From Maribacter arcticus (GTDB lineage Bacteria > Bacteroidota > Bacteroidia > Flavobacteriales > Flavobacteriaceae), in contig NZ_FUYL01000014.1 of the NCBI RefSeq assembly GCF_900167935.1, positions 1 through 64,000 of the forward strand: 64,000 nucleotides of DNA, read 5' to 3'. Shown in pieces: positions 34,068 through 52,066 of this stretch (the stretch's first letter is position 1; each line of letters starts with the position of its first letter). The translations under genes were made by a program, and so were the position numbers. Below the pieces are notes generated by a model. The model saw nothing but the letters and a program-made list of their open reading frames with translations. It was not told the DNA's origin and searched no databases.

Positions 34068-35399
34068 ATGTTACGAAGGTTAAAAATCTTTTTTGCTATT
34101 TTGACTGTGTGTTTTTCCTTTTCGGGAATAGCACAAACGTATCAATTGCCAGCTGGTAAGAAATTTCACAAAGTAAAGTTTGAGCTCATCAATAACTTGA
34201 TGATTATACCAGTAGAGGTGAACGGTACCGAGCTGTCGTTTGTATTAGATTCTGGTGTTGGTACTCCTATTTTATTCAATTTATCTGATCAAGATTCCAT
34301 TCAACTTAATAGTGTAACTGAAATAACGATAAATGGACTCGGAAAAGGAGACCCTATAAATGCACTTAAATCTACTGGTAATTTTGTAAAGCTTGGTAGT
34401 GTTAAGAATGTATCGCAAGATATTTATGTGGTAATGGATGCTGGTATTAATTTTTCTCCAGATTTGGGTGTGCCTGTGCATGGTATAATTGGCTATGAGC
34501 TATTTCGTGATTTTGTTGTTGACATTAATTACACGAACAAGGCGATTAAATTTTATAATCCTGATACATATAAACATAGGATATCTAAAAAGTCTCGAGT
34601 ATTAGATATGTCCGTTATACGAAAGAAGGCATATTTGAATGCCAGTGTTTTGGTTAAGGGTACAGAAGAAGTTCCTGTTAGATTGTTAATGGATACCGGC
34701 AGTAGTGATGCCGTGTGGTTATTTGAGGATGATCGTCTGCAAATACCACAAAAGTATTACGAAGATTTTTTAGGTAAGGGGCTCGCAGGTGATATATATG
34801 GAAAACGAACTAAAATTCATCATTTGAAAATTTCAGATTATATTTTGAAAGATGCCAAGGCAGCTTTTCCTGATATGGAAACTTTTAATACCATAATGGA
34901 TTTTGGGGGTAGAAATGGAAGTTTAGGTGGCGAAGTTTTGAAGCGATTTAATTTAGTTTTTGATTATGCAAACCGAAAAGTGGTCTTGAAGAAGAATTCT
35001 AATTTTAATAAAATGTTTCAATACAATATCAGTGGAATAAACTTGCAGCATGCAGGCATACGCTATGTATCCGAAAGAATAGCTGATCGTAATGGAATAG
35101 TGTATAGCGACCATAAAACATATGGTGATATACAAATGGTTCTTCAAGGAGCAACAAGACTTAGTGTGGTGCCAGAGATAATCGTGTCAGGAATACGACA
35201 AGGTAGTCCGGCGCATTCAGCTGGTTTGCAGGAAGGTGATGTTATTTTAGCGGTCAATGGTAAACCTATTCATCGGTATAAAATGCAAGAAATTATGAGT
35301 ATGCTAAATGATAATAAAGACAAAAAAGTGAAAGTATTGGTAGAACGTTATAATAATGATTTGTTATTCAGTTTTGTATTGAAACCACTGTTTGAGTAA
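34068..35399 (+). CDS. Retropepsin-like aspartyl protease with C-terminal PDZ domain
   Basis: The 443-aa protein has a signal peptide (ending near SGIAQ), then two retropepsin-like halves: FVLDSGVGTPILFN (DSG, about residue 63) and RLLMDTGSSDAVWLF (DTG, about residue 207). A C-terminal PDZ domain covers about residues 335-440 (GSPAHSAGLQEGDVILAVNGKPI). This architecture is widespread in Bacteroidota. It probably acts in the periplasm on unknown substrates. A TAACTTTA sequence at 34035-34042 is a one-mismatch -7 candidate. A terminator hairpin follows. Confidence 0.88.
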   Translation: MLRRLKIFFAILTVCFSFSGIAQTYQLPAGKKFHKVKFELINNLMIIPVEVNGTELSFVLDSGVGTPILFNLSDQDSIQLNSVTEITINGLGKGDPINALKSTGNFVKLGSVKNVSQDIYVVMDAGINFSPDLGVPVHGIIGYELFRDFVVDINYTNKAIKFYNPDTYKHRISKKSRVLDMSVIRKKAYLNASVLVKGTEEVPVRLLMDTGSSDAVWLFEDDRLQIPQKYYEDFLGKGLAGDIYGKRTKIHHLKISDYILKDAKAAFPDMETFNTIMDFGGRNGSLGGEVLKRFNLVFDYANRKVVLKKNSNFNKMFQYNISGINLQHAGIRYVSERIADRNGIVYSDHKTYGDIQMVLQGATRLSVVPEIIVSGIRQGSPAHSAGLQEGDVILAVNGKPIHRYKMQEIMSMLNDNKDKKVKVLVERYNNDLLFSFVLKPLFE

Positions 35400-39790: not shown

Positions 39791-39991
<201 letters not shown>

Positions 39992-40027: not shown

Positions 40028-40055
40028 ACCCTTGATTTTTTTCAGGGGTTTTTTT
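40028..40055 (+). terminator. Terminator after the lmo0937-type gene
   Basis: An 8-bp stem with one G-T pair (ACCCTTGA/TCAGGGGT) around a T-rich loop is followed by a long T run, 37 bp after the stop codon. Confidence 0.75.
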
Positions 40056-40144
40056 ATACGCTAATATGAATATCTCAATAATTACAAATAGCAAATTGGC
40101 ATCAATGTATTTGCAATTTTAATTTTGCATGTATTTTAACATGC

Positions 40145-40195
40145 TACATAAGGTCTAATCATAGTATCTTTAATACTATGATTAGACCTTATGTA
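40145..40195 (+). promoter_or_regulatory. Perfect 23-bp inverted repeat over the creatininase start codon
   Basis: Arms at 40145-40167 and 40173-40195 are perfectly complementary over 23 bp with a 5-nt CTTTA loop at 40168-40172. The right arm contains the ATG at 40178 and the first six codons (MIRPYV). If transcribed with the left arm, the mRNA would fold into a very stable hairpin with the start codon in the stem. There is no T run behind the right arm, so it is not a standard terminator. A TATCTTTA sequence (one mismatch to the -7 consensus) lies at 40165-40172 across the loop. Confidence 0.85.
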
Positions 40196-40942
40196 CTTGC
40201 AGAAACGAATTGGGAAAGTTTAAAAGATGAACGGTTTGACTTGGCAGTGTTGCCATGGGGCGCTACCGAAGCTCATAATTATCATTTGCCATACGGTACT
40301 GACAATTATCAGGCTCAAAGTTTTGTAGAAGCGGCAGCCAAGATGTCATGGGAGAAGGGAAAAAAGGTAATTGTTTTACCAACAATTCCTTTTGGGGTAA
40401 ATACTGGACAGAAAGATATTTATCTTGATATGAACCTTAACCCTTCTACACAATTGGCGATACTTAAAGACATTATAACTGTTTTGAATAGACAAGGCAT
40501 TTATAAATTATTATTGTTCAATGGTCATGGAGGCAATAATTTCAAGCCTATCGTAAGAGAGTTGGGTTTATTGTTCCCCGATATGTTTATAAGCTTTAGT
40601 TTTTTTCCACAAATGTTAGATAAAACTCAGTATTTCAAGGAAAAAGGTGATCATGCTGACGAAATGGAAACAAGTCTAATGCTTTATTTAAGACCAGATT
40701 TGGTGTTGCCGAATGATAAATGGGGTAGTGGTGATGAAAAAAAATTTAAGATTAAGGCTTTTAATGAAGGATGGGTTTGGGCAGAAAGACAATGGTCAAA
40801 AGTAAGTAGCGACACAGGTATTGGTAATCCAGAATTTGCCACGGCAGAAAAAGGAGAGCGTTTCTTTAATGATATAACAATAAAACTAGACGAGTTGTTT
40901 TGTGCTCTTTGTGAAGCAGATTTAAAAGAGTTATACGAATAG
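40178..40942 (+). CDS. Creatininase family protein
   Basis: The 254-aa protein is a metal-dependent amidohydrolase of the creatininase fold. Metal ligands are seen as Glu31 and His33 (GATEAHN), Asp42 (PYGTDN), His117 (NGHGGN) and Glu164 (HADEMETS). The family also contains ArfB- and MftE-type enzymes, so creatinine is not necessarily the substrate. The N-terminus starting MIRPYVLAETNW agrees with homologues as I remember them, so the ATG at 40178 is probably genuine even though it sits in a hairpin stem. It is transcribed alone. Confidence 0.9.
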   Translation: MIRPYVLAETNWESLKDERFDLAVLPWGATEAHNYHLPYGTDNYQAQSFVEAAAKMSWEKGKKVIVLPTIPFGVNTGQKDIYLDMNLNPSTQLAILKDIITVLNRQGIYKLLLFNGHGGNNFKPIVRELGLLFPDMFISFSFFPQMLDKTQYFKEKGDHADEMETSLMLYLRPDLVLPNDKWGSGDEKKFKIKAFNEGWVWAERQWSKVSSDTGIGNPEFATAEKGERFFNDITIKLDELFCALCEADLKELYE

Positions 40943-52034: not shown

Positions 52035-52066
52035 TTTACAATATCCTATAAATAGGATATTGTAAA
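52035..52066. repeat. Perfect 15-bp palindromic hairpin at the end of the M14 peptidase gene
   Basis: Arms at 52035-52049 and 52052-52066 are perfectly complementary with a 2-nt AA centre. The left arm contains the M14 stop codon and the right arm encodes part of its C-terminus. No T run follows on either side, so a standard terminator is uncertain; it may still stop the convergent transcripts or be a processing signal. Confidence 0.7.

Follow-up and report, generated by a model that had tools for sequence, protein, structure and literature searches.

A perfect hairpin covers the start codon of a creatininase-family gene in this Maribacter genome. We consider it likely that this structure arose through a replication template switch which, in one step, lengthened an older 7-bp inverted repeat, and that it is probably silent, the mRNA starting inside it. 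The hairpin lies within the window, by which we mean the whole 64,000-nucleotide stretch of DNA analysed. A preliminary description of the window had pointed out two perfectly complementary 23-nt arms around a 5-nt loop, and this holds exactly: the arms, at 40145-40167 and 40173-40195, pair at 23/23 positions around the loop CTTTA (40168..40172, (+)).

The left arm, TACATAAGGTCTAATCATAGTAT (40145-40167, (+)), is 100% complementary to 40173-40195 and consists of two parts of different age. More specifically, positions 40161..40167 (+) hold ATAGTAT, the left arm of an older 7-bp inverted repeat that is kept among relatives and is the proposed seed of the switch; its 7-nt partner within the right arm is ATACTAT, at 40173-40179. 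The remaining 16 nt, TACATAAGGTCTAATC (40145..40160, (+)), are the new part and form an inverse copy of 40180-40195, which corresponds to creatininase codons 1-6 counted from the third base of the ATG. The right arm (40173..40195, (+)) comprises a 5-nt lead and the first six codons of the gene; because the creatininase ATG is at 40178, this arm covers the start codon. On the minus strand the left arm does read as the mini-frame MIRPYVAC, as had been remarked, and this reading is a trivial by-product since the left arm is an inverse copy of the gene start.

The hairpin is real and non-random. The 51-nt sequence folds as RNA at -31.9 kcal/mol, which none of 200 shuffles equals, and the left-arm sequence occurs in this genome only at the two arms. 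To place the structure in its genome, perfect inverted repeats with arms of at least 11 bp and loops of 3-20 nt were surveyed in 385,745 of the 4,211,145 genome bases. This hairpin is the longest of the 39 found, the next having 18 bp, and the longest inverted repeat among 30 copies of the 112-kb contig simulated with a third-order Markov model reaches 17 bp, in agreement with the earlier view that such perfection is unlikely by chance. A search of IMG/VR with a 44-nt stretch of the hairpin gave 0 matches. An intrinsic terminator was considered and rejected, as it had been before: the right arm is followed by CTTGCAGAAA, without a T run, and the hairpin is absent from the results of the terminator scan.

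The creatininase-family gene itself (40178..40942, (+)) is an intact open reading frame of 254 aa with a Pfam Creatininase match (PF02633, 191 bits). Upstream lies a small gene for a DUF5670 protein of 55 aa (39824..39991, (+); Pfam PF18919), followed downstream by an intrinsic-terminator-like stem found by the terminator scan (40028..40049, (+)). About 90 nt (40050-40144) separate this terminator from the start block, and they can be aligned with the nearest relative, M. orientalis DSM 16471. Beyond M. orientalis, the terminator runs almost straight into the block in 16 of 17 other block-bearing relatives; the remaining one, L016, has a long stretch there that looks different by eye. Adjoining the large hairpin is a perfect 6-bp hairpin, GCATGT-ATTTTA-ACATGC (40127-40144), whose M. 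orientalis counterpart reads ATATGT-ATTTTA-GTATGC, with two adjacent doublet differences.

We compared upstream regions at 30 orthologous loci (our own and 29 others) out of 37 genomes with a match, leaving out G010, G031, G036, G020, G006, G037, the weak G052 match and all secondary matches. The left arm is missing in 29/29 of the genus orthologues examined, and within 195 nt upstream the longest exact inverse copy of the own gene-start region is 7 nt in any of these 29 loci. Directly before the ATG, 18 of the 29 loci carry a recognizable block. Nine of these blocks are exactly ATAGTAT-CTTTA-ATACTATG, and the other 9 are near variants whose left arm differs at no more than two positions. The seed ATAGTAT is exact in 12/18 of these other block-bearing Maribacter loci and differs at one or two positions in the remaining 6; together with the CTTTA loop it is also found in M. 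orientalis. Because it is common to relatives, the 7-bp repeat is older than the hairpin. Counts over 19 sequences given below refer to our own locus plus these 18, L003 and L021-L030 being without the block and left out.

A common layout among the relatives (for example L007, L010, L014 and L018) is ATGC-TTAA-ATAGTATCTTTA, as against ATGC-TACATAAGGTCTAATC-ATAGTATCTTTA here, so that relative to this layout the change begins exactly at the seed. At the place of the left arm, the sequence in M. orientalis is unrelated and about 33 nt long, and that in other relatives is about 4 nt long. The stretch that was replaced would have been 4 or about 33 nt, its exact sequence being uncertain, and as far as the alignments go the left arm is clearly new either way. 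Both flanks of the hairpin are colinear with M. orientalis, the alignment running through on both sides, and in the upstream stretch 92/108 ungapped columns are identical (16/108 differ).

Taken together, these comparisons display the marks of a quasipalindrome-associated template switch. A shorter or imperfect inverted repeat pre-exists in relatives; the new sequence is an exact inverse copy from the seed, all 16/16 added nucleotides copying the adjoining coding sequence; and the flanks are colinear with the relative, as a switch out and back would leave them. The preliminary description had proposed that template switching copied the gene start upstream and had named absence of the left arm in relatives as support; with the arm absent from all 29 and the seed shared, the mechanism is supported. 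We propose that, during leftward strand synthesis, the nascent 3' end would have folded back at the 7-bp repeat, that the folded strand would have used itself as template for 16 nt, and that it would then have returned to the true template beside ATGC(T). Such a switch would have made the hairpin in a single step on the branch leading to this Maribacter. If the mRNA is leaderless, as argued below, the left arm would be upstream DNA, the hairpin would not form in the mRNA and the creatininase gene would stay functional. The hairpin would then be a mostly neutral scar, able to affect translation only with transcripts that start upstream or read through the terminator.

To see how such a footprint stands out from background, the contig was aligned to that of M. 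orientalis (86,658 columns in 20 pieces, 90% identity), and pieces longer than 400 nt were scanned for short segments unlike the relative but identical or close to an inverse copy nearby. The scan covered about 84-86 kb, with a search without complementing as control. The hairpin site explains 14.5 differences in 23 nt, compared to 5 for the next best site and 4 for the better of two non-complement control hits. This result shows that the hairpin is the one clear template-switch footprint in the aligned stretch. In total there were 6 inverse-copy hits (2 here and 4 in M. orientalis), some of which are the two arms of one pair. Weaker footprints of a similar kind, with 4-5 differences explained, occur at 52035-52066 and at two places in the M. 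orientalis contig.

The earlier suggestion that the event is recent fares less well than the mechanism. From the 16/108 differing intergenic columns, the chance that 16 nt remain unchanged over the whole branch is about 0.27, and because of this probability the identity of the arms cannot date the switch. The junction is known from a single genome.

A match to the creatininase protein is present in 34/36 genus genomes, and in 30/30 of those with a completeness of 90% or more and a contamination no higher than 5%. The protein is 96% identical to that of M. orientalis, with 11 amino-acid differences in 253 compared residues and 44 synonymous codon differences. Decay of the gene was sought through relative amino-acid change, the polarity of the 11 differences being read by eye from 18 outgroup loci. 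On this reading some 4-5 seem to have arisen here and 3 in M. orientalis, the other 3-4 having no assigned side; on these counts there is no amino-acid burst on this branch, and decay was rejected. Separately, on contig 16 of one Maribacter genome, G006 (34142-34904), the creatininase match comes in two pieces with internal stops and is likely a pseudogene.

Whether the hairpin matters for expression depends on where transcription starts. A near -7 motif had been noticed across the loop, and it corresponds to TATCTTTA (40165..40172, (+)), a putative -7 promoter box that ends 5 nt before the ATG. It matches the consensus TAHHTTTG at 7/8 positions with a spacing of 5, the last base being A where the consensus has G. 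Its core is conserved: the TA at -13, -12 and the CTTTA at -10 to -6 are invariant in 19/19 block-bearing loci, the whole loop thus being identical in each, and the arms outside the box vary. In the Bacteroidetes -7 element TAHHTTTG, the final G is described as nearly invariant (PMC6847099, PMC9723704), and transcription in F. johnsoniae as starting 4-5 nt after the element (PMC6847099). Applying this spacing to the box at 40165..40172 predicts a transcription start at 40177-40178, at or one base before the ATG. We infer that TATCTTTA is the -7 box of a leaderless creatininase mRNA. Because this conserved -7-like box would place the start of transcription at the ATG, the left arm would fall outside the mRNA; it is probably untranscribed and the hairpin silent.

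The arrangement upstream bears on the same question. A terminator-like stem with a T run is found upstream in 19/19 block-bearing loci. It ends 27-43 nt before the ATG in 16/19, so close that a further promoter would hardly fit in these 16 loci, and it lies 102-138 nt from the ATG in the window, M. orientalis and L016. A scan for sigma-70-type promoters found 5, compared to 4.7 in shuffles, and was uninformative.

Boxes were counted before genes taken as the longest ORFs of at least 90 aa starting at the first ATG, in the window contig and L118-L180; expected numbers were derived from the remaining distances within those upstream regions. Across samples of three Maribacter genomes, 15/125 TAHHTTTG and 12/143 TAHHTTTA boxes lie 4-5 nt before an ATG, with no clear peak there for TAHHTTTT (4/115, 2.6 expected) or TAHHTTTC (0/30, 0.7 expected). 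The peak first came to notice in the sample of the own genome (G000) and in two contigs, that of the window and that of M. orientalis; it was then tested in two other genomes, G001 and G033, where TAHHTTTG/A at this distance was seen 17 times against 3.84 expected (P=6.6e-7). For TAHHTTTA alone the counts are 6 against 1.18 in G000, the creatininase gene being one of these 6, 4 against 1.01 in G033 and 2 against 0.91 in G001, the last not significant; the creatininase gene is absent from the G001 and G033 stretches. These counts suggest a class of leaderless Maribacter genes with a -7 box 4-5 nt before the ATG. Against a leaderless creatininase mRNA stand the final A of its box, the lack of a significant TAHHTTTA peak in G001 and the minority status of leaderless mRNAs in Flavobacterium: they make up only 5.5% in F. 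psychrophilum (PMC9723704), and in F. johnsoniae 87% of leaders are longer than 10 nt (PMC6847099).

A possible second promoter precedes the hairpin in the window: 21 nt separate a TTG (40096-40098) from a perfect TAATTTTG (40120-40127). M. orientalis is without this candidate and reads TAATTCTA there.

Among the alternatives, we first consider that the structure acts as DNA, the 7-bp repeat that flanks the -7 box binding a regulator symmetrically as an operator and the extension strengthening that binding or extruding a cruciform. This we regard as distinctly improbable. The repeat does hold together to some degree over 18 distinct sequences: 94.4% of its cells are paired (reached by 16/500 shuffles), 2/7 pairs are changed on both sides (12/500 shuffles) and the covariation score is 0.144 (7/500 shuffles). 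Such weak covariation of the 7-bp core is not predicted by the neutral view. However, the double changes fall in only 2 cells, and kinship alone can exceed shuffles of this kind without any structure. Moreover, conservation is stronger in the core TA-CTTTA than elsewhere in the arms, at 5/7 pairs one or more of the sequences cannot pair, and the extension occurs in no relative examined. The simplest reading would be that the promoter box and the start codon are conserved and that a short repeat lies around them by coincidence. A combined possibility, that the repeat around a leaderless box is a regulatory DNA element and that a cruciform with 23-nt arms, made by the switch, changes expression in one species, seems to us rather improbable. 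If true, it would amount to a new form of regulation gained through one copying error, spared a translational cost as transcription would start inside the right arm.

The preliminary description had also raised a selected switch in the mRNA. In such a switch the AUG would lie hidden within a 23-bp hairpin of the leader until temperature, a protein or a ligand opens it. Predicted folding shows what such a leader would do. With a leader of 46 nt, opening the AUG region from -8 to +8 costs 24.8 kcal/mol compared to 4.4 in M. orientalis, and the costs are 24.8 versus 7.3 kcal/mol with a 100-nt leader and 1.4 versus 1.1 kcal/mol with none. The start codon would thus be buried only if the hairpin is transcribed. 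A transcript driven from the candidate TAATTTTG at 40120-40127 could include the hairpin, and its leader would be of the kind that buries the AUG; the box at 40165-40172, on the other hand, would put the 5' end at the ATG. The comparative evidence speaks against selection for pairing. Perfect pairing of more than 7 bp spanning the ATG was seen in 0/29 genus loci and in 0/80 named loci (the best 80 of 434, partly overlapping with the 29), and the longest arm between -60 and +21 in those best 80 of 434 is 13 bp, in L098 at -55. Conservation of pairing, as a cis-regulatory RNA would show, is thus absent for the long stem (0/29) and limited to weak covariation in the 7-bp core. Furthermore, with 23 perfect pairs there is no obvious second fold for a bistable switch, and no Rfam family reaches its gathering score in the neighbourhood. 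The seven matches listed, all to microRNA models below threshold and 6 of them falling on the hairpin, were rejected as generic hairpin matches. With the left arm itself confined to this genome among the loci compared, we find a selected RNA switch very doubtful, and the earlier suggestion is not supported.

Fold-back chimeras yield perfect short-loop inverted repeats of this type and the hairpin is carried by one genome only, but an assembly or library artefact, in which a fold-back read produced the left arm, is highly improbable because a chimera would not continue into the correct upstream sequence, whereas here both flanks follow M. orientalis.

The template switch at this site offers a clean natural before-and-after case in bacteria, at a start codon, a place at which such a hairpin would be expected to do harm. 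That the hairpin is tolerated there suggests a simple reason, since the mRNA seems to begin inside it. The case is also a warning that a long perfect hairpin across a start codon is not necessarily a riboswitch, and the -7 boxes 4-5 nt before the ATG of Maribacter genes make leaderless transcripts a testable prediction.

The hairpin is explained by a known mutational process and represents a known kind of event. None of the papers listed in a literature search mentions Maribacter, from which we claim no absence from print. Quasipalindrome-associated template switching follows the Ripley model and is exemplified in E. coli by the hotspot in thyA and by the QP reporters in lacZ (PMC7202029). As in those systems, an imperfect inverted repeat was perfected here, apparently with the nascent strand as template; unlike them, ours is a natural event seen through species comparison, with a repeat extended from 7 to 23 bp over a putative promoter and start codon and not in a reporter gene. 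That one template switch can create a perfect hairpin stem is reported by Monttinen and Loytynoja (2022, PMC8794818). The present stem resembles theirs in being perfect and in its proposed origin from one switch, and differs from their stems, which lie in RNA genes, in that it spans a coding start together with a putative promoter and that its transcription as a whole is improbable. Finally, the putative promoter box resembles the Bacteroidetes -7 element (PMC6847099, PMC9723704) in its initial TA, two middle positions without G, TTT and 4-5 nt spacing; it departs from that consensus in ending with A and not G, and in serving a predicted leaderless mRNA, a minority type in Flavobacterium.
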